Source of the DNA: Phalacrocorax aristotelis
Taxonomy: Eukaryota > Chordata > Aves > Suliformes > Phalacrocoracidae
Length of the DNA stretch: 64,000 nucleotides
Assembly: GCF_949628215.1 (NCBI RefSeq)
Contig: NW_027441285.1
Location: 1 to 64,000 of the forward strand
Reading direction: 5' to 3'
The first letter of the stretch is position 1, and each line of letters opens with the position of its first letter. Of the stretch, positions 1 to 64,000 are shown one piece after another. Below the pieces are notes generated by a model. That model was given only the letters and a program-made list of their open reading frames with translations. It did no database searches and was not told the DNA's origin. The position numbers and the translations under genes were made by a program.

Positions 1-355
1 AGAAACAACAACAGAAATGCAATGGAAAAGAGAACAACGAGAGGCGCAAAGCCCCGGGGGAGGAGGGAAGGGAGGGCAGAGGGGGAACGAACCGCCGAAA
101 CAAACCGCACGCGCCGCAGCCGCGCCGCAGCCGCGCCGCGCCGCTCCCGAGCTGCAACTGGCCCCCCTCCATAGGCTGGTCATGGTGTCACGTGGTAGGG
201 AATGAACCTGCCGTCGGCCAGTCGGGCTCAGCCGCCCCCGCCACGGCCCCGCCCCTCCCAGCCCCCCCGCCACGCGGCAGAGCCCGGGAAGCTGGAAAGG
301 CAGCCGCCCCCCCACAGTGAGGAGAATTAACCCCTTCTCAGCCAAAACCAGCACA
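1..355 (-). mobile_element. Solo LTR of an avian endogenous retrovirus, unit 1 (cut by window start)
   Basis: This is the right-hand 355 bp of the LTR seen whole in the following units. Read on the minus strand it begins TGTGCTGGTTTTGGCTGAG and, in whole copies, finishes CTAAACCACGACA, so it has TG...CA ends. From memory this matches a common avian ERV LTR type, and that orientation places the family's CRE/TATA promoter ahead of its A/T-rich end. It contains a G-quadruplex motif on the + strand (56-85), a GC-rich short tandem repeat (about 109-145) and a CACGTG site (189-194). No internal retroviral region is present, so it is a fossil solo LTR. Confidence 0.75.
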
Positions 356-1150
356 TGTGGTTTAAGTTATTCTGGGTTGTTTTGGGGTTTTTTTTAGGGA
401 GAGTTTACATTATTTTTGTACTGTCCCTTTTCTTAGCAAAATGTGTTCCGTTTCAACAAAGCCTACCGACCCCAACCCCGCTTGCTGCTGTCAGGACCCT
501 GCCGGCCATGAGCCAGGCTGTGGCACGAAGCTCCGCGGCCAGAGCCCTGATGGCAATCCCAAGCAGGCAGCCGTGAAGTGACACCACCAGCGGGGATTTG
601 CTGCAGCGATCCCTCCAGGCGATTGCTTTGCTTTGCCACAGCCCCAGCAGCATCACTGTGTCGGGGGGGCTGTGGAGTTGCTCTGTGGACAACGGAGAGC
701 CCGGCCCAGCTCAGCTGCCACGCCGTGGACACCCCCAGCCGCTGCTGCTATTGCTGGCCAAAAACCACTGCCAGGAGTCAAATCCCAATTAGTGCCCACT
801 TTTGCCACAAGTACCGCTTCTCACCTGGCTCCGTCCCAGTCACAGCAGGGATACAGAGCTGGCTCCAAAGCTGCGCGGCCAGAGCCCTGATGGGAAGCGG
901 GGGGCGGGTGGGTGAAGGCTGCTCCAGCCTCCCTGCGCTCGCAGGAAACGTGCCCAAAAGCGTCTGCACAAGAAGCCCGTGCCACAGTCCCTCCCGCCCC
1001 GGATCACAGCCCTGTGCCTGTCCCCAGGTCCCAGATGCAGGGAAGGAGACGGCTGGGCGTGGGGACATTTGTCACCTGGCTCCGCACACGCGTGACCGTG
1101 TTTGTGACCCTACATGCGTGCAGAGCCGTGTCACAAAGAGCCCAGGCTGG
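356..1150 (+). other. 5' flank between LTR and core promoter
   Basis: This 795-bp stretch lies upstream of the gene and has the same length in every unit. Its first ~110 bp are AT-rich, with a TGTGGTTT motif at the LTR edge and a run of eight T; the rest is GC-rich. It holds a 24-bp motif occurring twice (530-553 and 870-893, one mismatch), TCACCTGGCTCCG twice (821-833 and 1072-1084), a G-quadruplex motif (892-912) and an 8-bp inverted repeat (1101-1108 / 1130-1137). I see no gene in it. Equivalents: 4677-5471, 9000-9794, 13321-14115, 17643-18437, 21964-22758, 26286-27080, 30608-31402, 34930-35724, 39247-40041, 43541-44335, 47862-48656, 52171-52965, 56493-57287, 60802-61596. Confidence 0.7.
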
Positions 1151-1185
1151 ATAAATACCCCGCGCAACCGCCCCCAGCTCAGTGG
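1151..1185 (+). promoter_or_regulatory. Predicted core promoter: TATA-like box plus initiator
   Basis: ATAAATA at 1151-1157 lies 30 bp upstream of the A (1181) in an initiator-like CTCAGTGG, which is the canonical TATA-to-start spacing. The start codon follows 100 bp later and the predicted 5' UTR has no upstream ATG. The ATG context has G at -3 and G at +4, which is strong. Equivalent TATA starts: 5472, 9795, 14116, 18438, 22759, 27081, 31403, 35725, 40042, 44336, 48657, 52966, 57288, 61597. The transcription start is inferred from motif spacing only. Confidence 0.6.
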
Positions 1186-1280
1186 CGAGTTTGCCACAGA
1201 CGCTGGAAGATCAGGACGGTCTTTGACCGCACTGACGTCCCCAAGCCCAGCCATCTCCTTCACTGCAGCCACTTGCGGTG

Positions 1281-3664
1281 ATGGAGCTGAGGTCGCGGCG
1301 CCGCAAGATGCCGCAGTCCCCCCCTGCCCAGTGTCCCCCGGCGCCGCCGGAGGAGCAGGCAGGACCCTCCCGTGTGCCACCCCCGCGCAAAAGAAAGCGT
1401 CAGGTCCCCAAGGAGGAAGGTGAGCGCAGAGCATCCCCCACCGGGCACCTGCCAGAGGGGATTTTGGCTGGTGCCCAGCTGTGCAAGCGGAGGCCCCCGC
1501 ATCGTGGCAAGGCGCCCCGGCCTCTCCCCCGTCCCGCTCCCGGCACTGCCGCCCCAGCACACCGGCGCGGTGCTGGGGGTGACAGCGCCGCTGTCCTCCG
1601 ACAGTATGCAGGCTGTGCTGGCGAGCAGACTGTGACCCCGAAGTCGTGGGGCAGCTGTGCCGTCAGAAGGGGCTCTGCGTCCATGAGAACTGCCTGGTGA
1701 GTCCCCGGGGCTCAACACCCACCGGTCCACAACACCCCGCCCTCTCCAGCACCGCGGCACAGGCAGCCCCTGGCACGCACCCTCTTTTCCCCCCTTGCAG
1801 TACCACGCCACCAGGCTGGGCCAGAAAGGGGCCGATGAAGAGGGCTTCTACGGCTTTCTCTTCCCCGACATCCGGCAGGAGCTGAAGCGGGTGGCACAGA
1901 AGGTGAGGCCGGAGGGGACGTGCCCCCACCGTGGTCCCCGTGTCCCGAGCCCGGCGCTGCACAGGCCAGCAACCCCCCAGGAATGCTCTGGCAGCTGGCT
2001 GCAAGCAACCGCCCCCAGATCCTCCTTCCCCCAAAAGGGCCCATTTCTGCAGCAACTGGGGATTTGGGGAGGGTAGGGGACGTTATCAGCGGCCCAGTGT
2101 CAATGGCCAGGCAGCCCACCGAAACGCGGCGGGGCTGCGCTGGGCGAGGGCGAACAGGGCTCCCCGGGGAGTGCGGCATTGACTGCGCGGCGCTGACGCT
2201 GTCCACCTCCATGCCGTCCCCAGAGGTGCTGCATCTGCCGGCTGCGGGGTGCCTCGGTCGCCTGTCGGCGCAGGCGCTGCCGCCGAATCTTCCACTTCCC
2301 CTGCGGCAGTGAGCGGGGCTGCGTCTCCCAGTTCTTCGGGGAGTTCAAGTGAGTGTGGCTGCCTTGAAGGGCCAGGGCCGGACCCAGGCCAGGGCCTGGG
2401 GCAGAGGAGGCCTGTGGCTGAACCGTCACCTCCCTCCCACAGGTCCTTCTGCTGGAAGCACCGGCCGGTGCAGCGGGTGCGGGCGGTGCAGCAGGACGAG
2501 ACCCCCTGCCTCATCTGCCAGGAGGCGGTGGCGGGGCGGCCCTGCTACGACACCCTGGTCTGTCCTGCCTGTGCCAGCGCCTGGTTCCACCGCCGCTGCA
2601 TCCAGGTAGGCGACATCGCCCCCGGCCCCTGACGGGATCAGCCCTGTCGTCACCCTGTCGCCCAGCTCCCAGGGGGCGAACGAGACCCGCCCCGGCTCTG
2701 ACGTTGATGCCCTCTCTGCCCCAGGGCCAGGCGCTGCGCTCTGCCCTGCACTACTTCCGCTGCCCCCTCTGCCAGGACGTGCCGACCTTCCAGGCGGAGA
2801 TGTTTCGCCTGGGCATCAAAATCCCCGACAGGTCGGTGCCCTCCCCGCTGCCCCCTTCCCCCTCCGTGGTGCTCCGGCCGATCCCCTCCTGCCTCCCTGG
2901 GTGCCAGCAGGGTGGCCCCCACGCCCCCCGCGGCTGAGGGCTTCCTGTCTCCCGCAGGGATGCTGCCTGGGAGGAGGACGGGGCCTTCGCGGACCACTAC
3001 CAGCGGCACAGCTCCTGCGATGCCAGCCAGTGCCTGTGCCCGGTGGGACGGGAGCAGGCGGAGGTGAACGGGTGAGTGCCCGTGTCCCCGGTCCCTGCAG
3101 CCCCGGCGAGGAGACGATGCCTTCGTCTCCTCCTCTGGGCAGGTATCCCGGGGGGGTCGGGTCCCTGGGATGGCGAGCTGGGCCTGGCACCAGGTGCGTG
3201 CCGGCAGCTCAGCTGCAGGTGCCTGGAGGGGAGCAGGGCCCAACGCTGCGCCCGGGCTGGCAGCCCACAGCTCGGGGGGCCTTTGGTGGCAGTGGGTCCC
3301 ATTGCTCCCCCAGGCCCTGGAGACTTCTGCTCTGTGGCTCCTGTGCCTCCCGCGGCACCCACCAGCTCTGCTCCGGCATAGGAGAAGACGCCGACTCCTG
3401 GGAGTGCGGCGACTGCAGCGGCACGGGCACTGGTGAGGGGGGCGGGGCAGGGTGCCCACAGCCACGTGGCCACCACAGCACGTGGGACCTGGGGCCAGGC
3501 GCAGGGCTCTGATGCGGGGAGGGAGCGAGCGTGGCCTGGACTTGTTGTGCTCATCGTCTCCCTGCCTGCCCCTTGCAGCGCCTCCCGTTGCACCTGGCCC
3601 AGACTCCAGCCCCGCCGACGCAGGGACCCTCGCACAGCACCCCGGGTCCTGGCACTTCAGCTGA
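1281..3664 (+). CDS. PHF7-like: PHF7-like PHD/RING-finger protein, copy 1 (reference copy)
   Basis: Predicted 348-residue PHD finger protein 7 homologue. Exons: 1281-1419, 1605-1696, 1801-1902, 2224-2348, 2443-2605, 2725-2831, 2958-3071, 3314-3432, 3579-3664; all introns are GT-AG and all phases agree. Residues 1-46 are Pro-rich and basic, with PRKRKR at 35-40 (likely nuclear import). The extended PHD has C48, C51, H73, C76, then C113, C116, C125, C130, H135, C138, C156, H159. The central RING/PHD variant has C175, C178, C193, C196, H202, C205, C220, C223. The last PHD-like module has C263, C268, C288, C291, H297, C300, C312, C315. Family landmarks are VHENCL, FHFPC, IPDRDAAWE and GTHQLC. Mouse PHF7 ubiquitinates histone H2A in spermatids; that role is inferred here. 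This copy has R31, Q41, A181. The tail after residue 321 is uncertain: a weaker acceptor (exon start 3610) would give another frame ending at 3752. Confidence 0.9.
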
Positions 3665-3750
3665 GGAAGAAGAGGCCAGGATCCTCGCAGGACACCCCGG
3701 CACCCAGCTGCCCTCCCAGCCCCTCTCCCAGAAACCTGCAGAGCCTCACT

Positions 3751-3756
3751 AATAAA
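3751..3756 (+). terminator. Polyadenylation signal AATAAA
   Basis: AATAAA lies 87 bp after the predicted stop codon and is followed by TG-rich sequence (about 3772-3790) that could act as the downstream element. It overlaps the TAA that ends the alternative last-exon frame. Equivalents: 8074-8079, 12395-12400, 16717-16722, 21038-21043, 25360-25365, 29682-29687, 34004-34009, 38326-38331, 42642-42647, 46936-46941, 51257-51262, 55567-55572, 59888-59893. Confidence 0.8.
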
Positions 3757-4191
3757 AGCTGGAACGTCACACGTGGCCTTGCTGATGTGCCGAAATGCTG
3801 CGGCGCAAGGGCCTCCGCGGTGGCCCTGACCCTCCCCTTGGCACCGTGGGTGCTGCCAGGTCGTTTCCCAAACAGGAGCTGGCACTGGCCGCCCCAGGTG
3901 AGATGCTGGTGTCACCCGCTTGGGGACGTGATGTGCGGCACCAGAGCTGAACCCACGGGGGCTGGGGAGGGGGAAGCTCCACGGGAGCTGCTGAGGGGCC
4001 AAGGCCTCCCTGCCCAGGGCGCGGAGCAGTGGACCCAGGGTGCGGGGAGGGCAAGGGCGTCCCCGTGGGTCCCTTCTCCCACACCGGGGCTCCAGCAGGG
4101 ACTTCAGAGACGTCCAGAGGGGTTCGTAGCACAAGCGCTTTGTTCAGGCATCAGAATTCCTGACTCTCCATTAACGAGCCGAATGACGTGG
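3757..4191. other. Intergenic spacer, no recognisable content
   Basis: This 435-bp GC-rich spacer between the polyadenylation signal and the next LTR has the same length in every unit. I see no gene, repeat family or RNA in it beyond one CACGTG at 3770-3775. Equivalents: 8080-8514, 12401-12835, 16723-17157, 21044-21478, 25366-25800, 29688-30122, 34010-34444, 38332-38766, 42648-43082, 46942-47376, 51263-51697, 55573-56007, 59894-60328. Copies 12 and 14 share one private base here (51432 and 60063). Confidence 0.7.
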
Positions 4192-4676
4192 TGTCGTGGT
4201 TTAGGCGGCAGCTCAGCCCCACACAGTCGCTCGCTCCCTCCCCCACCGGTAGATGGGGGAGAGAATCAGAAGGGTAACGCTCGTGGGTTGCGATAAGAAC
4301 AGTTTAATAATTAAAATTAACAGAAACAACAACAGAAATGCAATGGAAAAGAGAACAACGAGAGGCGCAAAGCCCCGGGGGAGGAGGGAAGGGAGGGCAG
4401 AGGGGGAACGAACCGCCGAAACAAACCGCACGCGCCGCAGCCGCGCCGCAGCCGCGCCGCGCCGCTCCCGAGCTGCAACTGGCCCCCCTCCATAGGCTGG
4501 TCATGGTGTCACGTGGTAGGGAATGAACCTGCCGTCGGCCAGTCGGGCTCAGCCGCCCCCGCCACGGCCCCGCCCCTCCCAGCCCCCCCGCCACGCGGCA
4601 GAGCCCGGGAAGCTGGAAAGGCAGCCGCCCCCCCACAGTGAGGAGAATTAACCCCTTCTCAGCCAAAACCAGCACA
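4192..4676 (-). mobile_element. Solo LTR of an avian endogenous retrovirus, unit 2 (whole, 485 bp)
   Basis: First complete LTR in the window. On the + strand it runs from TGTCGTGGTTTAGG to AAAACCAGCACA, with TG/CA ends. It is flanked by an imperfect 5-bp direct repeat (CGTGG on the left, TGTGG on the right) that fits a target-site duplication. The promoter-like order of the family is on the minus strand, so it points away from its own unit's gene and toward the 3' end of the preceding gene. No gag, pol or env sequence adjoins it. It is present at the same place in all units, so insertion predates amplification; the insertion is old relative to the array. Confidence 0.8.
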
Positions 4677-5601: not shown

Positions 5602-7987
5602 ATGGAGCTGAGGTCGCGGCGCCGCAAGATGCCGCAGTCCCCCCCTGCCCAGTGTCCCCCGGCGCCGCCGGAGGAGCAGGCAGGACCCTCCCGTGTGCCA
5701 CCCCCGCGCAAAAGAAAGCGTCAGGTCCCCAAGGAGGAAGGTGAGCGCAGAGCATCCCCCACCGGGCACCTGCCAGAGGGGATTTTGGCTGGTGCCCAGC
5801 TGTGCAAGCGGAGGCCCCCGCATCGTGGCAAGGCGCCCCGGCCTCTCCCCCGTCCCGCTCCCGGCACTGCCGCCCCAGCACACCGGCGCGGTGCTGGGGG
5901 TGACAGCGCCGCTGTCCTCCGACAGTATGCAGGCTGTGCTGGCGAGCAGACTGTGACCCCGAAGTCGTGGGGCAGCTGTGCCGTCAGAAGGGGCTCTGCG
6001 TCCATGAGAACTGCCTGGTGAGTCCCCGGGGCTCAACACCCACCGGTCCACAACACCCCGCCCTCTCCAGCACCGCGGCACAGGCAGCCCCTGGCACGCA
6101 CCCTCTTTTCCCCCCCTTGCAGTACCACGCCACCAGGCTGGGCCAGAAAGGGGCCGATGAAGAGGGCTTCTACGGCTTTCTCTTCCCCGACATCCGGCAG
6201 GAGCTGAAGCGGGTGGCACAGAAGGTGAGGCCGGAGGGGACGTGTCCCCACCGTGGTCCCCGTGTCCCGAGCCCGGCGCTGCACAGGCCAGCAACCCCCC
6301 AGGAATGCTCTGGCAGCTGGCTGCAAGCAACCGCCCCCAGATCCTCCTTCCCCCAAAAGGGCCCATTTCTGCAGCAACTGGGGATTTGGGGAGGGTAGGG
6401 GACGTTATCAGCGGCCCAGTGTCAATGGCCAGGCAGCCCACCGAAACGCGGCGGGGCTGCGCTGGGCGAGGGCGAACAGGGCTCCCCGGGGAGTGCGGCA
6501 TTGACTGCACGGCGCTGACGCTGTCCACCTCCATGCCGTCCCCAGAGGTGCTGCATCTGCCGGCTGCGGGGTGCCTCGGTCGCCTGTCGGCGCAGGCGCT
6601 GCCGCCGAATCTTCCACTTCCCCTGCGGCAGTGAGCGGGGCTGCGTCTCCCAGTTCTTCGGGGAGTTCAAGTGAGTGTGGCCGCCTTGAAGGGCCAGGGC
6701 CGGACCCAGGCCAGGGCCTGGGGCAGAGGAGGCCTGTGGCTGAACCGTCACCTCCCTCCCACAGGTCCTTCTGCTGGAAGCACCGGCCGGTGCAGCGGGT
6801 GCGGGCGGTGCAGCAGGACGAGACCCCCTGCCTCATCTGCCAGGAGGTGGTGGCGGGGCGGCCCTGCTACGACACCCTGGTCTGTCCTGCCTGTGCCAGC
6901 GCCTGGTTCCACCGCCGCTGCATCCAGGTAGGCGACATCGCCCCCGGCCCCTGACGGGATCAGCCCTGTCGTCACCCTGTCGCCCAGCTCCCAGGGGGCG
7001 AACGAGACCCGCCCCGGCTCTGACGTTGATGCCCTCTCTGCCCCAGGGCCAGGCGCTGCGCTCTGCCCTGCACTACTTCCGCTGCCCCCTCTGCCAGGAC
7101 GTGCCGACCTTCCAGGCGGAGATGTTTCGCCTGGGCATCAAAATCCCCGACAGGTCGGTGCCCTCCCCGCTGCCCCCTTCCCCCTCCGTGGTGCTCCGGC
7201 CGATCCCCTCCTGCCTCCCTGGGTGCCAGCAGGGTGGCCCCCACGCCCCCCGCGGCTGAGGGCTTCCTGTCTCCCGCAGGGATGCTGCCTGGGAGGAGGA
7301 CGGGGCCTTCGCGGACCACTACCAGCGGCACAGCTCCTGCGATGCCAGCCAGTGCCTGTGCCCGGTGGGACGGGAGCAGGCGGAGGTGAACGGGTGAGTG
7401 CCCGTGTCCCCGGTCCCTGCAGCCCCGGCGAGGAGACGATGCCTTCGTCTCCTCCTCTGGGCAGGTATCCCGGGGGGGGTCGGGTCCCTGGGATGGCGAG
7501 CTGGGCCTGGCACCAGGTGCGTGCCGGCAGCTCAGCTGCAGGTGCCTGGAGGGGAGCAGGGCCCAACGCTGCGCCCGGGCTGGCAGCCCACAGCTCGGGG
7601 GGCCTTTGGTGGCAGTGGGTCCCATTGCTCCCCCAGGCCCTGGAGACTTCTGCTCTGTGGCTCCTGTGCCTCCCGCGGCACCCACCAGCTCTGCTCCGGC
7701 ATAGGAGAAGACGCCGACTCCTGGGAGTGCGGCGACTGCAGCGGCACGGGCACTGGTGAGGGGGGCGGGGCAGGGTGCCCACAGCCACGTGGCCACCACA
7801 GCACGTGGGACCTGGGGCCAGGCGCAGGGCTCTGATGCGGGGAGGGAGCGAGCGTGGCCTGGACTTGTTGTGCTCATCGTCTCCCTGCCTGCCCCTTGCA
7901 GCGCCTCCCGTTGCACCTGGCCCAGACTCCAGCCCCGCCGACGCAGGGACCCTCGCACAGCACCCCGGGTCCTGGCACTTCAGCTGA
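5602..7987 (+). CDS. PHF7-like: PHF7-like PHD/RING-finger protein, copy 2
   Basis: Exons: 5602-5740, 5926-6017, 6123-6224, 6546-6670, 6765-6927, 7047-7153, 7280-7393, 7637-7755, 7902-7987. Protein markers are R31, Q41 and V181, so the central RING-like module differs from copy 1 by Ala-to-Val between C178 and C193. Intron 2 has one more C (run of seven) and intron 7 one more G (run of eight) than copy 1. Intron 7 carries the GCAGGT marker. All zinc ligands and splice sites are kept. It is preceded by a promoter with TATA at 5472. Confidence 0.9.
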
Positions 7988-9924: not shown

Positions 9925-12308
9925 ATGGAGCTGAGGTCGCGGCGCCGCAAGATGCCCCAGTCCCCCCCTGCCCAGTGTCCCCCGGCGCCGCCGGAGGAGC
10001 AGGCAGGACCCTCCCGTGTGCCACCCCCGCGCAAAAGAAAGCGTCAGGTCCCCAAGGAGGAAGGTGAGCGCAGAGCATCCCCCACCAGGCACCTGCCAGA
10101 GGGGATTTTGGCTGGTGCCCAGCTGTGCAAGCGGAGGCCCCCGCATCGTGGCAAGGCACCCCGGCCTCTCCCCCGTCCCGCTCCCGGCACTGCCGCCCCA
10201 GCACACCGGCGCGGTGCTGGGGGTGACAGCGCCGCTGTCCTCCGACAGTATGCAGGCTGTGCTGGCGAGCAGACTGTGACCCCGAAGTCGTGGGGCAGCT
10301 GTGCCGTCAGAAGGGGCTCTGCGTCCATGAGAACTGCCTGGTGAGTCCCCGGGGCTCAACACCCACCGGTCCACAACACCCCGCCCTCTCCAGCACCGCG
10401 GCACAGGCAGCGCCTGGCACGCACCCTCTTTTCCCCCCTTGCAGTACCACGCCACCAGGCTGGGCCAGAAAGGGGCCGATGAAGAGGGCTTCTACGGCTT
10501 TCTCTTCCCCGACATCCGGCAGGAGCTGAAGCGGGTGGCACAGAAGGTGAGGCCGGAGGGGACGTGTCCCCACCGTGGTCCCCGTGTCCCGAGCCCGGCG
10601 CTGCACAGGCCAGCAACCCCCCAGGAATGCTCTGGCAGCTGGCTGCAAGCAACCGCCCCCAGATCCTCCTTCCCCCAAAAGGGCCCATTTCTGCAGCAAC
10701 TGGGAATTTGGGGAGGGTAGGGGACGTTATCAGCGGCCCAGTGTCAATGGCCAGGCAGCCCACCGAAACGCGGCGGGGCTGCGCTGGGCGAGGGCGAACA
10801 GGGCTCCCCGGGGAGTGCGGCATTGACTGCGCGGCGCTGACGCTGTCCACCTCCATGCCGTCCCCAGAGGTGCTGCATCTGCCGGCTGCGGGGTGCCTCG
10901 GTCGCCTGTCGGCGCAGGCGCTGCCGCCGAATCTTCCACTTCCCCTGCGGCAGTGAGCGGGGCTGCGTCTCCCAGTTCTTCGGGGAGTTCAAGTGAGTGT
11001 GGCCGCCTTGAAGGGCCAGGGCCGGACCCAGGCCAGGGCCTGGGGCAGAGGAGGCCTGTGGCTGAACCGTCACCTCCCTCCCACAGGTCCTTCTGCTGGA
11101 AGCACCGGCCGGTGCAGCGGGTGCGGGCGGTGCAGCAGGACGAGACCCCCTGCCTCATCTGCCAGGAGGCGGTGGCGGGGCGGCCCTGCTACGACACCCT
11201 GGTCTGTCCTGCCTGTGCCAGCGCCTGGTTCCACCGCCGCTGCATCCAGGTAGGCGACATCGCCCCCGGCCCCTGACGGGATCAGCCCTGTCGTCACCCT
11301 GTCGCCCAGCTCCCAGGGGGCGAACGAGACCCGCCCCGGCTCTGACGTTGATGCCCTCTCTGCCCCAGGGCCAGGCGCTGCGCTCTGCCCTGCACTACTT
11401 CCGCTGCCCCCTCTGCCAGGACGTGCCGACCTTCCAGGCGGAGATGTTTCGCCTGGGCATCAAAATCCCCGACAGGTCGGTGCCCTCCCCGCTGCCCCCT
11501 TCCCCCTCCGTGGTGCTCCGGCCGATCCCCTCCTGCCTCCCTGGGTGCCAGCAGGGTGGCCCCCACGCCCCCCGCGGCTGAGGGCTTCCTGTCTCCCGCA
11601 GGGATGCTGCCTGGGAGGAGGACGGGGCCTTCGCGGACCACTACCAGCGGCACAGCTCCTGCGATGCTAGCCAGTGCCTGTGCCCGGTGGGACGGGAGCA
11701 GGCGGAGGTGAACGGGTGAGTGCCCGTGTCCCCGGTCCCTGCAGCCCCGGCGAGGAGACGATGCCTTCGTCTCCTCCTCTGGGCAGGTATCCCGGGGGGG
11801 TCGGGTCCCTGGGATGGCGAGCTGGGCCTGGCACCAGGTGCGTGCCGGCAGCTCAGCTTCGGCTGCCTGGAGGGGAGCAGGGCCCAACGCTGCGCCCGGG
11901 CTGGCAGCCCACAGCTCGGGGGGCCTTTGGTGGCAGTGGGTCCCATTGCTCCCCCAGGCCCTGGAGACTTCTGCTCTGTGGCTCCTGTGCCTCCCGCGGC
12001 ACCCACCAGCTCTGCTCCGGCATAGGAGAAGACGCCGACTCCTGGGAGTGCGGCGACTGCAGCGGCACGGGCACTGGTGAGGGGGGCGGGGCAGGGTGCC
12101 CACGGCCACGTGGCCACCACAGCACGTGGGACCTGGGGCCAGGCGCAGGGCTCTGATGCGGGGAGGGAGCGAGCGTGGCCTGGACTTGTTGTGCTCATCG
12201 TCTCCCTGCCTGCCCCTTGCAGCGCCTCCCGTTGCACCTGGCCCAGACTCCAGCCCCGCCGACGCAGGGACCCTCGCACAGCACCCCGGGTCCTGGCACT
12301 TCAGCTGA
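9925..12308 (+). CDS. PHF7-like: PHF7-like PHD/RING-finger protein, copy 3
   Basis: Exons: 9925-10063, 10249-10340, 10445-10546, 10868-10992, 11087-11249, 11369-11475, 11602-11715, 11958-12076, 12223-12308. Markers are Q41, A181, a silent change at A265 (GCT, shared with copies 10, 11 and 14), and TCGGCT in intron 7. In intron 1 it shares the GCAAGGCACC variant with copy 10 only, suggesting that these distant copies descend from or exchanged with one another. The frame and zinc ligands are complete. Confidence 0.9.
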
Positions 12309-14245: not shown

Positions 14246-16630
14246 ATGGAGCTGAGGTCGCGGCGCCGCAAGATGCCCCAGTCCCCCCCTGCCCAGTGTC
14301 CCCCGGCGCCGCCGGAGGAGCAGGCAGGACCCTCCCATGTGCCACCCCCGCGCAAAAGAAAGCGTCCGGTCCCCAAGGAGGAAGGTGAGCGCAGAGCATC
14401 CCCCACCGGGCACCTGCCAGAGGGGATTTTGGCTGGTGCCCAGCTGTGCAAGCGGAGGCCCCCGCATCGTGGCAAGGCGCCCCGGCCTCTCCCCCGTCCC
14501 GCTCCCGGCACTGCCGCCCCAGCACACCGGCGCGGTGCTGGGGGTGACAGCGCCGCTGTCCTCCGACAGTATGCAGGCTGTGCTGGCGAGCAGACTGTGA
14601 CCCCGAAGTCGTGGGGCAGCTGTGCCGTCAGAAGGGGCTCTGCGTCCATGAGAACTGCCTGGTGAGTCCCCGGGGCTCAACACCCACCGGTCCACAACAC
14701 CCCGCCCTCTCCAGCACCGCGGCACAGGCAGCCCCTGGCACGCACCCTCTTTTCCCCCCTTGCAGTACCACGCCACCAGGCTGGGCCAGAAAGGGGCCGA
14801 TGAAGAGGGCTTCTACGGCTTTCTCTTCCCCGACATCCGGCAGGAGCTGAAGCGGGTGGCACAGAAGGTGAGGCCGGAGGGGACGTGTCCCCACCGTGGT
14901 CCCCGTGTCCCGAGCCCGGCGCTGCACAGGCCAGCAACCCCCCAGGAATGCTCTGGCAGCTGGCTGCAAGCAACCGCCCCCAGATCCTCCTTCCCCCAAA
15001 AGGGCCCATTTCTGCAGCAACTGGGAATTTGGGGAGGGTAGGGGACGTTATCAGCGGCCCAGTGTCAATGGCCAGGCAGCCCACCGAAACGCGGCGGGGC
15101 TGCGCTGGGCGAGGGCGAACAGGGCTCCCCGGGGAGTGCGGCATTGACTGCACGGCGCTGACGCTGTCCACCTCCATGCCGTCCCCAGAGGTGCTGCATC
15201 TGCCGGCTGCGGGGTGCCTCGGTCGCCTGTCGGCGCAGGCGCTGCCGCCGAATCTTCCACTTCCCCTGCGGCAGTGAGCGGGGCTGCGTCTCCCAGTTCT
15301 TCGGGGAGTTCAAGTGAGTGTGGCCGCCTTGAAGGGCCAGGGCCGGACCCAGGCCAGGGCCTGGGGCAGAGGAGGCCTGTGGCTGAACCGTCACCTCCCT
15401 CCCACAGGTCCTTCTGCTGGAAGCACCGGCCGGTGCAGCGGGTGCGGGCGGTGCAGCAGGACGAGACCCCCTGCCTCATCTGCCAGGAGGTGGTGGCGGG
15501 GCGGCCCTGCTACGACACCCTGGTCTGTCCTGCCTGTGCCAGCGCCTGGTTCCACCGCCGCTGCATCCAGGTAGGCGACATCGCCCCCGGCCCCTGACGG
15601 GATCAGCCCTGTCGTCACCCTGTCGCCCAGCTCCCAGGGGGCGAACGAGACCCGCCCCGGCTCTGACGTTGATGCCCTCTCTGCCCCAGGGCCAGGCGCT
15701 GCGCTCTGCCCTGCACTACTTCCGCTGTCCCCTCTGCCAGGACGTGCCGACCTTCCAGGCGGAGATGTTTCGCCTGGGCATCAAAATCCCCGACAGGTCG
15801 GTGCCCTCCCCGCTGCCCCCTTCCCCCTCCGTGGTGCTCCGGCCGATCCCCTCCTGCCTCCCTGGGTGCCAGCAGGGTGGCCCCCACGCCCCCCGCGGCT
15901 GAGGGCTTCCTGTCTCCCGCAGGGATGCTGCCTGGGAGGAGGACGGGGCCTTCGCGGACCACTACCAGCGGCACAGCTCCTGCGATGCCAGCCAGTGCCT
16001 GTGCCCGGTGGGACGGGAGCAGGCGGAGGTGAACGGGTGAGTGCCCGTGTCCCCGGTCCCTGCAGCCCCGGCGAGGAGACGATGCCTTCGTCTCCTCCTC
16101 TGGGCAGGTATCCCGGGGGGGGTCGGGTCCCTGGGATGGCGAGCTGGGCCTGGCACCAGGTGCGTGCCGGCAGCTCAGCTTCGGCTGCCTGGAGGGGAGC
16201 AGGGCCCAACGCTGCGCCCGGGCTGGCAGCCCACAGCTCGGGGGGCCTTTGGTGGCAGTGGGTCCCATTGCTCCCCCAGGCCCTGGAGACTTCTGCTCTG
16301 TGGCTCCTGTGCCTCCCGCGGCACCCACCAGCTCTGCTCCGGCATAGGAGAAGACGCCGACTCCTGGGAGTGCGGCGACTGCAGCGGCACGGGCACTGGT
16401 GAGGGGGGCGGGGCAGGGTGCCCATGGCCACGTGGCCACCACAGCACGTGGGACCTGGGGCCAGGCGCAGGGCTCTGATGCGGGGAGGGAGCGAGCGTGG
16501 CCTGGACTTGTTGTGCTCATCGTCTCCCTGCCTGCCCCTTGCAGCGCCTCCCGTTGCACCTGGCCCAGACTCCAGCCCCGCCGACGCAGGGACCCTCGCA
16601 CAGCACCCCGGGTCCTGGCACTTCAGCTGA
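14246..16630 (+). CDS. PHF7-like: PHF7-like PHD/RING-finger protein, copy 4
   Basis: Exons: 14246-14384, 14570-14661, 14766-14867, 15189-15313, 15408-15570, 15690-15796, 15923-16036, 16280-16398, 16545-16630. It is the only copy with H31 (Arg-to-His in the Pro-rich N-terminus); other markers are P41 and V181, a silent change at C220 (TGT), eight G in intron 7 and TCGGCT in intron 7. In intron 3 it shares a CTGCACGGC variant with copies 2 and 13. Otherwise identical in domain content to copy 1. Confidence 0.9.
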
Positions 16631-48786: not shown

Positions 48787-51170
48787 ATGGAGCTGAGGTC
48801 GCGGCGCCGCAAGATGCCCCAGTCCCCCCCTGCCCAGTGTCCCCCGGCGCCGCCGGAGGAGCAGGCAGGACCCTCCCGTGTGCCACCCCCGCGCAAAAGA
48901 AAGCGTCAGGTCCCCAAGGAGGAAGGTGAGCGCAGAGCATCCCCCACCGGGCACCTGCCAGAGGGGATTTTGGCTGGTGCCCAGCTGTGCAAGCGGAGGC
49001 CCCCGCATCGTGGCAAGGCGCCCCGGCCTCTCCCCCGTCCCGCTCCCGGCACTGCCGCCCCAGCACACCGGCGCGGTGCTGGGGGTGACAGCGCCGCTGT
49101 CCTCCGACAGTATGCAGGCTGTGCTGGCGAGCAGACTGTGACCCCGAAGTCGTGGGGCAGCTGTGCCGTCAGAAGGGGCTCTGCGTCCATGAGAACTGCC
49201 TGGTGAGTCCCCGGGGCTCAACACCCACCGGTCCACAACACCCCGCCCTCTCCAGCACCGCGGCACAGGCAGCGCCTGGCACGCACCCTCTTTTCCCCCC
49301 TTGCAGTACCACGCCACCAGGCTGGGCCAGAAAGGGGCCGATGAAGAGGGCTTCTACGGCTTTCTCTTCCCCGACATCCGGCAGGAGCTGAAGCGGGTGG
49401 CACAGAAGGTGAGGCCGGAGGGGACGTGTCCCCACCGTGGTCCCCGTGTCCCGAGCCCGGCGCTGCACAGGCCAGCAACCCCCCAGGAATGCTCTGGCAG
49501 CTGGCTGCAAGCAACCGCCCCCAGATCCTCCTTCCCCCAAAAGGGCCCATTTCTGCAGCAACTGGGGATTTGGGGAGGGTAGGGGACGTTATCAGCGGCC
49601 CAGTGTCAATGGCCAGGCAGCCCACCGAAACGCGGCGGGGCTGCGCTGGGCGAGAGCGAACAGGGCTCCCCGGGGAGCGCGGCATTGACTGCGCGGCGCT
49701 GACGCTGTCCACCTCCATGCCGTCCCCAGAGGTGCTGCATCTGCCGGCTGCGGGGTGCCTCGGTCGCCTGTCGGCGCAGGCGCTGCCGCCGAATCTTCCA
49801 CTTCCCCTGCGGCAGTGAGCGGGGCTGCGTCTCCCAGTTCTTCGGGGAGTTCAAGTGAGTGTGGCCGCCTTGAAGGGCCAGGGCCGGACCCAGGCCAGGG
49901 CCTGGGGCAGAGGAGGCCTGTGGCTGAACCGTCACCTCCCTCCCACAGGTCCTTCTGCTGGAAGCACCGGCCGGTGCAGCGGGTGCGGGCGGTGCAGCAG
50001 GACGAGACCCCCTGCCTCATCTGCCAGGAGGTGGTGGCGGGGCGGCCCTGCTACGACACCCTGGTCTGTCCTGCCTGTGCCAGCGCCTGGTTCCACCGCC
50101 GCTGCATCCAGGTAGGCGACATCGCCCCCGGCCCCTGACGGGATCAGCCCTGTCGTCACCCTGTCGCCCAGCTCCCAGGGGGCGAACGAGACCCGCCCCG
50201 GCTCTGACGTTGATGCCCTCTCTGCCCCAGGGCCAGGCGCTGCGCTCTGCCCTGCACTACTTCCGCTGCCCCCTCTGCCAGGACGTGCCGACCTTCCAGG
50301 CGGAGATGTTTCGCCTGGGCATCAAAATCCCCGACAGGTCGGTGCCCTCCCCGCTGCCCCCTTCCCCCTCCGTGGTGCTCCGGCCGATCCCCTCCTGCCT
50401 CCCTGGGTGCCAGCAGGGTGGCCCCCACGCCCCCCGCAGCTGAGGGCTTCCTGTCTCCCGCAGGGATGCTGCCTGGGAGGAGGACGGGGCCTTCGCGGAC
50501 CACTACCAGCGGCACAGCTCCTGCGATGCCAGCCAGTGCCTGTGCCCGGTGGGACGGGAGCAGGCGGAGGTGAACGGGTGAGTGCCCGTGTCCCCGGTCC
50601 CTGCAGCCCCGGCGAGGAGACGATGCCTTCGTCTCCTCCTCTGGGCAGGTATCCCGGGGGGGGTCGGGTCCCTGGGATGGCGAGCTGGGCCTGGCACCAG
50701 GTGCGTGCCGGCAGCTCAGCTGCAGGTGCCGGAGGGGAGCAGGGCCCAACGCTGCGCCCGGGCTGGCAGCCCACAGCTCGGGGGGCCTTTGGTGGCAGTG
50801 GGTCCCATTGCTCCCCCAGGCCCTGGAGACTTCTGCTCTGTGGCTCCTGTGCCTCCCGCGGCACCCACCAGCTCTGCTCCGGCATAGGAGAAGACGCCGA
50901 CTCCTGGGAGTGCGGCGACTGCAGCGGCACGGGCACTGGTGAGGGGGGCGGGGCAGGGTGCCCATGGCCACGTGGCCACCACAGCACGTGGGACCTGGGG
51001 CCAGGCGCAGGGCTCTGATGCGGGGAGGGAGCGAGCGTGGCCTGGACTTGTTGTGCTCATCGTCTCCCTGCCTGCCCCTTGCAGCGCCTCCCGTTGCACC
51101 TGGCCCAGACTCCAGCCCCGCCGACGCAGGGACCCTCGCACAGCACCCCGGGTCCTGGCACTTCAGCTGA
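48787..51170 (+). CDS. PHF7-like: PHF7-like PHD/RING-finger protein, copy 12
   Basis: Exons: 48787-48925, 49111-49202, 49307-49408, 49730-49854, 49949-50111, 50231-50337, 50464-50577, 50820-50938, 51085-51170. Markers are Q41, V181, eight G and GCAGGT in intron 7, with a private one-base deletion just after that marker. The predicted 5' UTR has a private CACTACAGCC variant. In the downstream spacer it shares a base with copy 14 (51432) and lacks the CACGTG of the other copies (CACATG, about 51277). Confidence 0.9.
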
Positions 51171-53095: not shown

Positions 53096-55480
53096 ATGGA
53101 GCTGAGGTCGCGGCGCCGCAAGATGCCCCAGTCCCCCCCTGCCCAGTGTCCCCCGGCGCCGCCGGAGGAGCAGGCAGGACCCTCCCGTGTGCCACCCCCG
53201 CGCAAAAGAAAGCGTCCGGTCCCCAAGGAGGAAGGTGAGCGCAGAGCATCCCCCACCGGGCACCTGCCAGAGGGGATTTTGGCTGGTGCCCAGCTGTGCA
53301 AGCGGAGGCCCCCGCATCGTGGCAAGGCGCCCCGGCCTCTCCCCCGTCCCGCTCCCGGCACTGCCGCCCCAGCACACCGGCGCGGTGCTGGGGGTGACAG
53401 CGCCGCTGTCCTCCGACAGTATGCAGGCTGTGCTGGCGAGCAGACTGTGACCCCGAAGTCGTGGGGCAGCTGTGCCGTCAGAAGGGGCTCTGCGTCCATG
53501 AGAACTGCCTGGTGAGTCCCCGGGGCTCAACACCCACCGGTCCACAACACCCCGCCCTCTCCAGCACCGCGGCACAGGCAGCCCCTGGCACGCACCCTCT
53601 TTTCCCCCCTTGCAGTACCACGCCACCAGGCTGGGCCAGAAAGGGGCCGATGAAGAGGGCTTCTACGGCTTTCTCTTCCCCGACATCCGGCAGGAGCTGA
53701 AGCGGGTGGCACAGAAGGTGAGGCCGGAGGGGACGTGTCCCCACCGTGGTCCCCGTGTCCCGAGCCCGGCGCTGCACAGGCCAGCAACCCCCCAGGAATG
53801 CTCTGGCAGCTGGCTGCAAGCAACCGCCCCCAGATCCTCCTTCCCCCAAAAGGGCCCATTTCTGCAGCAACTGGGAATTTGGGGAGGGTAGGGGACGTTA
53901 TCAGCGGCCCAGTGTCAATGGCCAGGCAGCCCACCGAAACGCGGCGGGGCTGCGCTGGGCGAGGGCGAACAGGGCTCCCCGGGGAGTGCGGCATTGACTG
54001 CACGGCGCTGACGCTGTCCACCTCCATGCCGTCCCCAGAGGTGCTGCATCTGCCGGCTGCGGGGTGCCTCGGTCGCCTGTCGGCGCAGGCGCTGCCGCCG
54101 AATCTTCCACTTCCCCTGCGGCAGTGAGCGGGGCTGCGTCTCCCAGTTCTTCGGGGAGTTCAAGTGAGTGTGGCCGCCTTGAAGGGCCAGGGCCGGACCC
54201 AGGCCAGGGCCTGGGGCAGAGGAGGCCTGTGGCTGAACCGTCACCTCCCTCCCACAGGTCCTTCTGCTGGAAGCACCGGCCGGTGCAGCGGGTGCGGGCG
54301 GTGCAGCAGGACGAGACCCCCTGCCTCATCTGCCAGGAGGTGGTGGCGGGGCGGCCCTGCTACGACACCCTGGTCTGTCCTGCCTGTGCCAGCGCCTGGT
54401 TCCACCGCCGCTGCATCCAGGTAGGCGACATTGCCCCCGGCCCCTGACGGGATCAGCCCTGTCGTCACCCTGTCGCCCAGCTCCCAGGGGGCGAACGAGA
54501 CCCGCCCCGGCTCTGACGTTGATGCCCTCTCTGCCCCAGGGCCAGGCGCTGCGCTCTGCCCTGCACTACTTCCGCTGCCCCCTCTGCCAGGACGTGCCGA
54601 CCTTCCAGGCGGAGATGTTTCGCCTGGGCATCAAAATCCCCGACAGGTCGGTGCCCTCCCCGCTGCCCCCTTCCCCCTCCGTGGTGCTCCGGCCGATCCC
54701 CTCCTGCCTCCCTGGGTGCCAGCAGGGTGGCCCCCACGCCCCCCGCGGCTGAGGGCTTCCTGTCTCCCGCAGGGATGCTGCCTGGGAGGAGGACGGGGCC
54801 TTCGCGGACCACTACCAGCGGCACAGCTCCTGCGATGCCAGCCAGTGCCTGTGCCCGGTGGGACGGGAGCAGGCGGAGGTGAACGGGTGAGTGCCCGTGT
54901 CCCCGGTCCCTGCAGCCCCGGCGAGGAGACGATGCCTTCGTCTCCTCCTCTGGGCAGGTATCCCGGGGGGGGTCGGGTCCCTGGGATGGCGAGCTGGGCC
55001 TGGCACCAGGTGCGTGCCGGCAGCTCAGCTGCAGGTGCCTGGAGGGGAGCAGGGCCCAACGCTGCGCCCGGGCTGGCAGCCCACAGCTCGGGGGGCCTTT
55101 GGTGGCAGTGGGTCCCATTGCTCCCCCAGGCCCTGGAGACTTCTGCTCTGTGGCTCCTGTGCCTCCCGCGGCACCCACCAGCTCTGCTCCGGCATAGGAG
55201 AAGACGCCGACTCCTGGGAGTGCGGCGACTGCAGCGGCACGGGCACTGGTGAGGGGGGCGGGGCAGGGTGCCCACGGCCACGTGGCCACCACAGCACGTG
55301 GGACCTGGGGCCAGGCGCAGGGCTCTGATGCGGGGAGGGAGCGAGCGTGGCCTGGACTTGTTGTGCTCATCGTCTCCCTGCCTGCCCCTTGCAGCGCCTC
55401 CCGTTGCACCTGGCTCAGACTCCAGCCCCGCCGACGCAGGGACCCTCGCACAGCACCCCGGGTCCTGGCACTTCAGCTGA
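53096..55480 (+). CDS. PHF7-like: PHF7-like PHD/RING-finger protein, copy 13
   Basis: Exons: 53096-53234, 53420-53511, 53616-53717, 54039-54163, 54258-54420, 54540-54646, 54773-54886, 55130-55248, 55395-55480. Markers are P41, V181, eight G and GCAGGT in intron 7. It is the only copy with S328 (Pro-to-Ser) in the C-terminal tail; in the alternative last-exon frame the same base falls upstream of the alternative acceptor and would not be coding. In intron 3 it shares variants with copy 4. Confidence 0.9.
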
Positions 55481-57417: not shown

Positions 57418-59801
57418 ATGGAGCTGAGGTCGCGGCGCCGCAAGATGCCCCAGTCCCCCCCTGCCCAGTGTCCCCCGGCGCCGCCGGAGGAGCAGGCAGG
57501 ACCCTCCCGTGTGCCACCCCCGCGCAAAAGAAAGCGTCCGGTCCCCAAGGAGGAAGGTGAGCGCAGAGCATCCCCCACCGGGCACCTGCCAGAGGGGATT
57601 TTGGCTGGTGCCCAGCTGTGCAAGCGGAGGCCCCCGCATCGTGGCAAGGCGCCCCGGCCTCTCCCCCGTCCCGCTCCCGGCACTGCCGCCCCAGCACACC
57701 GGCGCGGTGCTGGGGGTGACAGCGCCGCTGTCCTCCGACAGTATGCAGGCTGTGCTGGCGAGCAGACTGTGACCCCGAAGTCGTGGGGCAGCTGTGCCGT
57801 CAGAAGGGGCTCTGCGTCCATGAGAACTGCCTGGTGAGTCCCCGGGGCTCAACACCCACCGGTCCACAACACCCCGCCCTCTCCAGCACCGCGGCACAGG
57901 CAGCGCCTGGCACGCACCCTCTTTTCCCCCCTTGCAGTACCACGCCACCAGGCTGGGCCAGAAAGGGGCCGATGAAGAGGGCTTCTACGGCTTTCTCTTC
58001 CCCGACATCCGGCAGGAGCTGAAGCGGGTGGCACAGAAGGTGAGGCCGGAGGGGACGTGTCCCCACCGTGGTCCCCGTGTCCCGAGCCCGGCGCTGCACA
58101 GGCCAGCAACCCCCCAGGAATGCTCTGGCAGCTGGCTGCAAGCAACCGCCCCCAGATCCTCCTTCCCCCAAAAGGGCCCATTTCTGCAGCAACTGGGGAT
58201 TTGGGGAGGGTAGGGGACGTTATCAGCGGCCCAGTGTCAATGGCCAGGCAGCCCACCGAAACGCGGCGGGGCTGCGCTGGGCGAGGGCGAACAGGGCTCC
58301 CCGGGGAGCGCGGCATTGACTGCGCGGCGCTGACGCTGTCCACCTCCATGCCGTCCCCAGAGGTGCTGCATCTGCCGGCTGCGGGGTGCCTCGGTCGCCT
58401 GTCGGCGCAGGCGCTGCCGCCGAATCTTCCACTTCCCCTGCGGCAGTGAGCGGGGCTGCGTCTCCCAGTTCTTCGGGGAGTTCAAGTGAGTGTGGCCGCC
58501 TTGAAGGGCCAGGGCCGGACCCAGGCCAGGGCCTGGGGCAGAGGAGGCCTGTGGCTGAACCGTCACCTCCCTCCCACAGGTCCTTCTGCTGGAAGCACCG
58601 GCCGGTGCAGCGGGTGCGGGCGGTGCAGCAGGACGAGACCCCCTGCCTCATCTGCCAGGAGGCGGTGGCGGGGCGGCCCTGCTACGACACCCTGGTCTGT
58701 CCTGCCTGTGCCAGCGCCTGGTTCCACCGCCGCTGCATCCAGGTAGGCGACATTGCCCCCGGCCCCTGACGGGATCAGCCCTGTCGTCACCCTGTCGCCC
58801 AGCTCCCAGGGGGCGAACGAGACCCGCCCCGGCTCTGACGTTGATGCCCTCTCTGCCCCAGGGCCAGGCGCTGCGCTCTGCCCTGCACTACTTCCGCTGC
58901 CCCCTCTGCCAGGACGTGCCGACCTTCCAGGCGGAGATGTTTCGCCTGGGCATCAAAATCCCCGACAGGTCGGTGCCCTCCCCGCTGCCCCCTTCCCCCT
59001 CCGTGGTGCTCCGGCCGATCCCCTCCTGCCTCCCTGGGTGCCAGCAGGGTGGCCCCCACGCCCCCCGCGGCTGAGGGCTTCCTGTCTCCCGCAGGGATGC
59101 TGCCTGGGAGGAGGACGGGGCCTTCGCGGACCACTACCAGCGGCACAGCTCCTGCGATGCTAGCCAGTGCCTGTGCCCGGTGGGACGGGAGCAGGCGGAG
59201 GTGAACGGGTGAGTGCCCGTGTCCCCGGTCCCTGCAGCCCTGGCGAGGAGACGATGCCTTCGTCTCCTCCTCTGGGCAGGTATCCCGGGGGGGTCGGGTC
59301 CCTGGGATGGCGAGCTGGGCCTGGCACCAGGTGCGTGCCGGCAGCTCAGCTTCGGCTGCCTGGAGGGGAGCAGGGCCCAACGCTGCGCCCGGGCTGGCAG
59401 CCCACAGCTCGGGGGGCCTTTGGTGGCAGTGGGTCCCATTGCTCCCCCAGGCCCTGGAGACTTCTGCTCTGTGGCTCCTGTGCCTCCCGCGGCACCCACC
59501 AGCTCTGCTCCGGCATAGGAGAAGACGCCGACTCCTGGGAGTGCGGCGACTGCAGCGGCACGGGCACTGGTGAGGGGGGCGGGGCAGGGTGCCCACGGCC
59601 ACGTGGCCACCACAGCACGTGGGACCTGGGGCCAGGCGCAGGGCTCTGATGCGGGGAGGGAGCGAGCGTGGCCTGGACTTGTTGTGCTCATCGTCTCCCT
59701 GCCTGCCCCTTGCAGCGCCTCCCGTTGCACCTGGCCCAGACTCCAGCCCCGCCGACGCAGGGACCCTCGCACAGCACCCCGGGTCCTGGCACTTCAGCTG
59801 A
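57418..59801 (+). CDS. PHF7-like: PHF7-like PHD/RING-finger protein, copy 14
   Basis: Exons: 57418-57556, 57742-57833, 57938-58039, 58361-58485, 58580-58742, 58862-58968, 59095-59208, 59451-59569, 59716-59801. Markers are P41, A181, silent GCT at A265 and TCGGCT in intron 7, which group it with copies 10 and 11. Its downstream spacer, however, shares a base with copy 12 (60063). Intron 7 has a private GCCCTGGCGAGG variant. The frame and zinc ligands are complete. Confidence 0.9.
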
Positions 59802-60328
59802 GGAAGAAGAGGCCAGGATCCTCGCAGGACACCCCGGCACCCAGCTGCCCTCCCAGCCCCTCTCCCAGAAACCTGCAGAGCCTCACTAATAAAAGCTGGA
59901 ACGTCACACGTGGCCTTGCTGATGTGCCGAAATGCTGCGGCGCAAGGGCCTCCGCGGTGGCCCTGACCCTCCCCTTGGCACCGTGGGTGCTGCCAGGTCG
60001 TTTCCCAAACAGGAGCTGGCACTGGCCGCCCCAGGTGAGATGCTGGTGTCACCCGCTTGGGGTCGTGATGTGCGGCACCAGAGCTGAACCCACGGGGGCT
60101 GGGGAGGGGGAAGCTCCACGGGAGCTGCTGAGGGGCCAAGGCCTCCCTGCCCAGGGCGCGGAGCAGTGGACCCAGGGTGCGGGGAGGGCAAGGGCGTCCC
60201 CGTGGGTCCCTTCTCCCACACCGGGGCTCCAGCAGGGACTTCAGAGACGTCCAGAGGGGTTCGTAGCACAAGCGCTTTGTTCAGGCATCAGAATTCCTGA
60301 CTCTCCATTAACGAGCCGAATGACGTGG

Positions 60329-60801
60329 TGTCGTGGTTTAGGCGGCAGCTCAGCCCCACACAGTCGCTCGCTCCCTCCCCCACCGGTAGATGGGGGAGAG
60401 AATCAGAAGGGTAACGCTCGTGGGTTGCGATAAGAACAGTTTAATAATTAAAATTAACAGAAACGCAATGGAAAAGAGAACAACGAGAGGCGCAAAGCCC
60501 CGGGGGAGGAGGGAAGGGAGGGCAGAGGGGGAACGAACCGCCGAAACAAACCGCACGCGCCGCAGCCGCGCCGCAGCCGCGCCGCGCCGCTCCCGAGCTG
60601 CAACTGGCCCCCCTCCATAGGCTGGTCATGGTGTCACGTGGTAGGGAATGAACCTGCCGTCGGCCAGTCGGGCTCAGCCGCCCCCGCCACGGCCCCGCCC
60701 CTCCCAGCCCCCCCGCCACGCGGCAGAGCCCGGGAAGCTGGAAAGGCAGCCGCCCCCCCACAGTGAGGAGAATTAACCCCTTCTCAGCCAAAACCAGCAC
60801 A
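60329..60801 (-). mobile_element. Solo LTR, unit 15 (473 bp)
   Basis: Same element, position and orientation as in the other units, with the 473-bp length shared only with unit 13. Confidence 0.8.
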
Positions 60802-61726
60802 TGTGGTTTAAGTTATTCTGGGTTGTTTTGGGGTTTTTTTTAGGGAGAGTTTACATTATTTTTGTACTGTCCCTTTTCTTAGCAAAATGTGTTCCGTTTC
60901 AACAAAGCCTACCGACCCCAACCCCGCTTGCTGCTGTCAGGACCCTGCCGGCCATGAGCCAGGCTGTGGCACGAAGCTCCGCGGCCAGAGCCCTGATGGC
61001 AATCCCAAGCAGGCAGCCGTGAAGTGACACCACCAGCGGGGATTTGCTGCAGCGATCCCTCCAGGCGATTGCTTTGCTTTGCCACAGCCCCAGCAGCATC
61101 ACTGTGTCGGGGGGGCTGTGGAGTTGCTCTGTGGACAACGGAGAGCCCGGCCCAGCTCAGCTGCCACGCCGTGGACACCCCCAGCCGCTGCTGCTATTGC
61201 TGGCCAAAAACCACTGCCAGGAGTCAAATCCCAATTAGTGCCCACTTTTGCCACAAGTACCGCTTCTCACCTGGCTCCGTCCCAGTCACAGCAGGGATAC
61301 AGAGCTGGCTCCAAAGCTGCGCGGCCAGAGCCCTGATGGGAAGCGGGGGGCGGGTGGGTGAAGGCTGCTCCAGCCTCCCTGCGCTCGCGGGAAACGTGCC
61401 CAAAAGCGTCTGCACAAGAAGCCCGTGCCACAGTCCCTCCCGCCCCGGATCACAGCCCTGTGCCTGTCCCCAGGTCCCAGATGCAGGGAAGGAGACGGCT
61501 GGGCGTGGGGACATTTGTCACCTGGCTCCGCACACGCGTGACCGTGTTTGTGACCCTACATGCGTGCAGAGCCGTGTCACAAAGAGCCCAGGCTGGATAA
61601 ATACCCCGCGCAACCGCCCCCAGCTCAGTGGCGAGTTTGCCACAGACGCTGGAAGATCAGGACGGTCTTTGACCGCACCGACGTCCCCAAGCCCAGCCAT
61701 CTCCTTCACTGCAGCCACTTGCGGTG

Positions 61727-64000
61727 ATGGAGCTGAGGTCGCGGCGCCGCAAGATGCCCCAGTCCCCCCCTGCCCAGTGTCCCCCGGCGCCGCCGGAGGA
61801 GCAGGCAGGACCCTCCCGTGTGCCACCCCCGCGCAAAAGAAAGCGTCCGGTCCCCAAGGAGGAAGGTGAGCGCAGAGCATCCCCCACCGGGCACCTGCCA
61901 GAGGGGATTTTGGCTGGTGCCCAGCTGTGCAAGCGGAGGCCCCCGCATCGTGGCAAGGCGCCCCGGCCTCTCCCCCGTCCCGCTCCCGGCACTGCCGCCC
62001 CAGCACACCGGCGCGGTGCTGGGGGTGACAGCGCCGCTGTCCTCCGACAGTATGCAGGCTGTGCTGGCGAGCAGACTGTGACCCCGAAGTCGTGGGGCAG
62101 CTGTGCCGTCAGAAGGGGCTCTGCGTCCATGAGAACTGCCTGGTGAGTCCCCGGGGCTCAACACCCACCGGTCCACAACACCCCGCCCTCTCCAGCACCG
62201 CGGCACAGGCAGCCCCTGGCACGCACCCTCTTTTCCCCCCTTGCAGTACCACGCCACCAGGCTGGGCCAGAAAGGGGCCGATGAAGAGGGCTTCTACGGC
62301 TTTCTCTTCCCCGACATCCGGCAGGAGCTGAAGCGGGTGGCACAGAAGGTGAGGCCGGAGGGGACGTGTCCCCACCGTGGTCCCCGTGTCCCGAGCCCGG
62401 CGCTGCACAGGCCAGCAACCCCCCAGGAATGCTCTGGCAGCTGGCTGCAAGCAACCGCCCCCAGATCCTCCTTCCCCCAAAAGGGCCCATTTCTGCAGCA
62501 CTGGGAATTTGGGGAGGGTAGGGGACGTTATCAGCGGCCCAGTGTCAATGGCCAGGCAGCCCACCGAAACGCGGCGGGGCTGCGCTGGGCGAGGGCGAAC
62601 AGGGCTCCCCGGGGAGCGCGGCATTGACTGCGCGGCGCTGACGCTGTCCACCTCCATGCCGTCCCCAGAGGTGCTGCATCTGCCGGCTGCGGGGTGCCTC
62701 GGTCGCCTGTCGGCGCAGGCGCTGCCGCCGAATCTTCCACTTCCCCTGCGGCAGTGAGCGGGGCTGCGTCTCCCAGTTCTTCGGGGAGTTCAAGTGAGTG
62801 TGGCCGCCTTGAAGGGCCAGGGCCGGACCCAGGCCAGGGCCTGGGGCAGAGGAGGCCTGTGGCTGAACCGTCACCTCCCTCCCACAGGTCCTTCTGCTGG
62901 AAGCACCGGCCGGTGCAGCGGGTGCGGGCGGTGCAGCAGGACGAGACCCCCTGCCTCATCTGCCAGGAGGTGGTGGCGGGGCGGCCCTGCTACGACACCC
63001 TGGTCTGTCCTGCCTGTGCCAGCGCCTGGTTCCACCGCCGCTGCATCCAGGTAGGCGACATCGCCCCCGGCCCCTGACGGGATCAGCCCTGTCGTCACCC
63101 TGTCGCCCAGCTCCCAGGGGGCGAACGAGACCCGCCCCGGCTCTGACGTTGATGCCCTCTCTGCCCCAGGGCCAGGCGCTGCGCTCTGCCCTGCACTACT
63201 TCCGCTGCCCCCTCTGCCAGGACGTGCCGACCTTCCAGGCGGAGATGTTTCGCCTGGGCATCAAAATCCCCGACAGGTCGGTGCCCTCCCCGCTGCCCCC
63301 TTCCCCCTCCGTGGTGCTCCGGCCGATCCCCTCCTGCCTCCCTGGGTGCCAGCAGGGTGGCCCCCACGCCCCCCGCGGCTGAGGGCTTCCTGTCTCCCGC
63401 AGGGATGCTGCCTGGGAGGAGGACGGGGCCTTCGCGGACCACTACCAGCGGCACAGCTCCTGCGATGCCAGCCAGTGCCTGTGCCCGGTGGGACGGGAGC
63501 AGGCGGAGGTGAACGGGTGAGTGCCCGTGTCCCCGGTCCCTGCAGCCCCGGCGAGGAGACGATGCCTTCGTCTCCTCCTCTGGGCAGGTATCCCGGGGGG
63601 GGTCGGGTCCCTGGGATGGCGAGCTGGGCCTGGCACCAGGTGCGTGCCGGCAGCTCAGCTGCAGGTGCCTGGAGGGGAGCAGGGCCCAACGCTGCGCCCG
63701 GGCTGGCAGCCCACAGCTCGGGGGGCCTTTGGTGGCAGTGGGTCCCATTGCTCCCCCAGGCCCTGGAGACTTCTGCTCTGTGGCTCCTGTGCCTCCCGCG
63801 GCACCCACCAGCTCTGCTCCGGCATAGGAGAAGACGCCGACTCCTGGGAGTGCGGCGACTGCAGCGGCACGGGCACTGGTGAGGGGGGCGGGGCAGGGTG
63901 CCCACGGCCACGTGGCCACCACAGCACGTGGGACCTGGGGCCAGGCGCAGGGCTCTGATGCGGGGAGGGAGCGAGCGTGGCCTGGACTTGTTGTGCTCAT
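61727..64000 (+). CDS. PHF7-like: PHF7-like PHD/RING-finger protein, copy 15 (cut by window end)
   Basis: Exons visible: 61727-61865, 62051-62142, 62247-62348, 62669-62793, 62888-63050, 63170-63276, 63403-63516, 63760-63878. The window ends in intron 8, so the last exon is not seen. Markers are P41, V181, eight G and GCAGGT in intron 7. It shares a one-base intron 3 deletion with copy 5 and its LTR length with unit 13, so its two ends point to different relatives. The coding part visible is intact through the last PHD-like module. Confidence 0.9.

Follow-up and report, generated by a model that had tools for sequence, protein, structure and literature searches.

PHF7 is a single gene in mammals. 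The mammalian protein is a reader of H3K4me2/3 that ubiquitinates histone H2A and is required for male fertility, its role in spermatid histone ubiquitination being placed at the histone-to-protamine step (PMC12751476). PHF7 and G2E3 have also been identified as H3K14 ligases, and the activity of PHF7 requires the RING, PHD, and ePHD domains together (PMC13061254). The RING of G2E3 resembles that of PHF7 (PMC13061254), but G2E3 additionally carries a HECT domain (PMC12794477).

In birds, the multiplication of PHF7 has already been reported. A 2025 review gives 60 copies for chicken, 16 of them on the Z chromosome (PMC12794477), and clusters on five chicken chromosomes are attributed to Fouchecourt et al. 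(2022, Genomics 114:110411), as cited in PMC10360393. The same paper describes the PHF7 orthogroup OG0000005 as expanded in turkey. For the zebra finch, an expansion known from earlier work is mentioned in PMC4373106; that canary study itself did not find the expansion and allowed for a bioinformatic problem as the cause. The locus described here, from Phalacrocorax aristotelis, is a clean and young example of this known kind, and it comes as little surprise because avian PHF7 amplification is already published. It shares with the chicken family a multi-copy, clustered organisation and a PHF7-type protein without HECT, and with turkey and zebra finch a lineage-specific amplification of PHF7. 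It differs from the chicken genes in that the units are strictly head-to-tail, 99.5-99.9% identical, and resolved at the level of single bases.

The window, i.e., the whole 64-kb stretch that was analysed, consists entirely of 15 units of about 4,322 bp arranged head to tail, with a G+C content of 66-68% throughout. An anchor search over the whole window located 15 start codons between positions 1281 and 61727, spaced 4294-4323 bp apart, and 14 poly(A) sites. Repeated 20-mers nearly all recur at a single offset near 4,300 bp, and 2,633 distinct 20-mers occur exactly 15 times each, which excludes a chance origin of the array. The uninterrupted array of at least 15 PHF7-like copies that had been proposed from the letters of the sequence was thus recovered by both the anchors and the 20-mer counts. 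All units are in direct orientation, and their identity lies above the 99% mark by which the copies of an ampliconic testis gene array, in tandem or palindrome, are recognised. The window begins within the LTR-like element upstream of unit 1, so that this unit lacks its beginning. Its far end falls within intron 8 of unit 15, and exon 9 of that unit, like its poly(A) signal, lies outside. Fourteen genes are complete, and the fifteenth is partial. Since no single-copy flank lies inside the window, the count is a lower bound, and the array comprises at least 15 units.

Every unit has the same layout, starting with an LTR-like element (about 480 bp) and continuing with a spacer of about 0.8 kb, a TATA-like box, nine exons, and an AATAAA signal about 90 bp downstream of the stop codon. 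The features are as follows.

1..355, no strand assigned: 3' part of the LTR-like element before unit 1; sequence equal to 4322-4676
1151..1157, + strand: putative TATA-like box of unit 1 (ATAAATA), 130 bp upstream of the ATG; anchor likewise placed in 15 of 15 units
1281..3664, + strand: PHF7-like gene of unit 1, CDS of nine exons, 348 aa
1281-1419, 1605-1696, 1801-1902, 2224-2348, 2443-2605, + strand: exons 1-5 of unit 1
2725-2831, 2958-3071, 3314-3432, 3579-3664, + strand: exons 6-9 of unit 1
3751..3756, + strand: AATAAA poly(A) signal of unit 1; anchor found in all 14 units with a 3' end in the window
4197..4676, no strand assigned: LTR-like element, 480 bp, copy before unit 2; one per unit, copies placed by anchor
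5602..7987, + strand: PHF7-like gene of unit 2; A181V
9925..12308, + strand: PHF7-like gene of unit 3
14246..16630, + strand: PHF7-like gene of unit 4; R31H, Q41P, A181V
18568..20951, + strand: PHF7-like gene of unit 5; Q41P, A181V, G313S
22889..25273, + strand: PHF7-like gene of unit 6
27211..29595, + strand: PHF7-like gene of unit 7
31533..33917, + strand: PHF7-like gene of unit 8
35855..38239, + strand: PHF7-like gene of unit 9
40172..42555, + strand: PHF7-like gene of unit 10; Q41P
44466..46849, + strand: PHF7-like gene of unit 11; Q41P
48787..51170, + strand: PHF7-like gene of unit 12; A181V
53096..55480, + strand: PHF7-like gene of unit 13; Q41P, A181V, P328S
57418..59801, + strand: PHF7-like gene of unit 14; Q41P
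61727..64000, + strand: PHF7-like gene of unit 15, truncated by the end of the window after exon 8; Q41P, A181V

A nine-exon model with GT-AG introns throughout suits every unit. All 14 complete genes have 348 codons without a stop or frameshift, and the reading frame of unit 15 stays open over the eight exons that the window contains. The original prediction gave each of the 15 units a nine-exon gene, a poly(A) signal, and a promoter of its own. The gene and its signal were found complete in 14 units, whereas within the window unit 15 is without exon 9 and AATAAA, and what could be recovered of the promoters is a TATA-like motif at a fixed site before each ATG and nothing beyond the motif. 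An Rfam search of the first two units gave no match. Other long open reading frames of the unit, among those scanned, had no Pfam match and were taken as chance frames in GC-rich DNA. A scan of viral contigs for relatives of the window found none.

The LTR-like element, which may resemble a common avian LTR family, starts with TGG and ends with ACA. It is flanked by TGTCG and TGTGG, possibly a decayed 5-bp target duplication. This solo-LTR-like sequence was amplified along with the gene. It has few substitutions (0.62% of sites) but accounts for the array's three largest indels (27, 12, and 5 bp), and a short GCCGC-rich repeat is the site of two of these.

From its N-terminus, the 348-aa protein consists of a basic tail followed by ePHD, RING, and C-terminal PHD domains, the domain order of human PHF7 (8jwj, 8jwu, 8jws, 1weq). 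In a Pfam scan of the protein, only zf-HC5HC2H scored above its cut-off. The best match in a search of PDB sequences was PHF7 itself (8jwj, residues 46-321, E 6.2e-81), followed by 8jwu, the complex of PHF7 with the E2 UBE2D2; further matches were 8jws and 1weq, the latter covering the C-terminal PHD only. Identity to human PHF7 is 45% over 275 residues spanning ePHD-RING-PHD, and the sequence alignment places 30 Cys/His residues in common across the three zinc domains. One cysteine of the RING region differs in position: it aligns with query position 195 in the human protein, while the array protein has C193, displaced by two residues. Neither the protein nor the other scanned long frames of the unit contain a HECT domain by Pfam, which sets the array gene apart from G2E3 despite the similar RING. 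The match to 8jwj, the conserved Cys/His, and the absence of HECT support the assignment to PHF7, and the copies appear, as judged from their sequence, to be working PHF7 ubiquitin-ligase genes.

Pairwise divergence of the units ranges from 0.07 to 0.48% with a mean of 0.32%. Units 6 to 9 form a tight block, only 0.07-0.14% apart. Such similarity, in an array that runs off both window ends with units at least 99.5% identical, is also what would be expected if a single unit had been falsely repeated during assembly. This explanation is highly improbable. Among the 15 units there is not one identical pair; most have substitutions private to a single unit, shared variants are combined differently from unit to unit, and the units are further distinguished by indels of 1-27 bp. 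That every copy is distinct and that variants are shared in many combinations argues against a simple assembly duplication.

The distribution of the variants points to exchange among the units. In the four-gamete test, all four combinations were present in 145 of 378 informative site pairs (28 sites, a few of which sit in a misaligned stretch at the unit start). These violations indicate that variants were reshuffled among the units, the pattern expected from unequal crossing-over or gene conversion. The apparent substitutions at the start of units 13 and 15 were an artefact of cutting the units beside a 12-bp deletion, and a correlation of distance with position obtained with that cut (Mantel P 0.03) was spurious; once the cut was placed at the poly(A) site, distance and array position were not correlated (Mantel P 0.21). 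Units 13 and 15, which are not adjacent, have the 12-bp deletion in the LTR-like element in common and differ by only 0.10%, so that a block of two units may have been duplicated or converted near this end of the window. Variable sites make up 1.72% of introns, 1.15% of the CDS, and 1.03% of the spacer. Several of the intron variants are clustered, for instance at unit-1 positions 3215-3219, and these clusters have the look of conversion tracts. The neutral rate is about 2e-9 per site per year. By rough inference, the mean divergence would place the common ancestry of the units, or their last homogenisation, less than a million years back.

The 14 complete copies give rise to six protein variants, none more than three residues away from the commonest. 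The variable residues are 31, 41, 181, 313, and 328, and none of them is a conserved Cys/His. The CDS contains 12 variable sites, seven synonymous and five nonsynonymous, for an expected nonsynonymous share of 69-76% under four mutation models. At these 12 sites the deficit has a P of 0.010 to 0.050 and an implied pN/pS of 0.22 to 0.33. The range over the four models is preferred because the non-coding spectrum used for neutral expected counts came from an alignment with misaligned unit starts. Since the coding variation is mostly synonymous, constraint on the copies is indicated, albeit weakly shown.

These observations also bear on a neutral explanation, in which the array arose by unequal crossing-over in a region that is rich in GC and prone to recombination, most copies are dispensable, and the intact frames reflect youth and homogenisation instead of selection for dosage. 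Few disabling mutations are expected at the mean divergence, about 0.4 stops under neutrality, so that open frames alone are weak evidence of selection in such a young array. The exchange among units fits this explanation as well. All seven indel events (1-27 bp) lie outside the CDS, but this is not unlikely by chance, as the CDS makes up only about 24% of the unit. What speaks against neutral instability is the depletion of nonsynonymous sites in the CDS, together with the repeated expansion of PHF7 in chicken, turkey, and zebra finch, which suggests that something favours expansion. Overall, we consider neutral instability unlikely, albeit worth keeping in mind.

The locus probably represents a bird's tandem array of functional PHF7 paralogs that is young and has been homogenised, a reading that we hold with good confidence. 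A block made of the PHF7 gene, its promoter, and the adjoining solo LTR would have been duplicated first. The block would then have been multiplied, with unequal crossing-over and gene conversion keeping its copies similar. Recent tandem amplification of intact genes is supported by the open frames, the low divergence, and the mosaic variants. Of the original prediction, the PHF7 identity and the amplification hold, but selection for dosage, meiotic drive, and a position on a microchromosome, sex chromosome, or germline-restricted chromosome are conjectural. The copies may act mainly through a higher dosage of one protein and not through new proteins, given that the 14 complete genes encode only a handful of nearly identical products.

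Amplification by conflict in the male germline has also been weighed, with PHF7 copies on a sex or germline-restricted chromosome serving as a driver or suppressor through sperm chromatin condensation. The action of PHF7 at the histone-to-protamine step (PMC12751476) and the 16 Z-linked copies of chicken (PMC12794477) would be compatible with it. The copies, however, encode nearly one protein and not fast-diverging ones, and a literature search found no paper tying PHF7 to a germline-restricted chromosome; we regard this origin as very doubtful. It is likewise a long shot that the present array lies on such a chromosome, or on a sex chromosome, and that the number of copies skews transmission by way of sperm chromatin remodelling. 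If true, birds would have in PHF7 dosage an agent of genetic conflict.

With a homogenised array of functional paralogs as the preferred reading, the locus adds to an avian multi-copy PHF7 literature that, in the sources cited here, consists mainly of gene counts and in which the zebra finch expansion is doubted by one group. Fifteen intact (one partial), distinct, and homogenised copies resolved at the base level indicate that one such array, at least, exists as real sequence and that its genes are probably constrained. Moreover, the array supplies a defined unit for tests of copy number, expression, and fertility.
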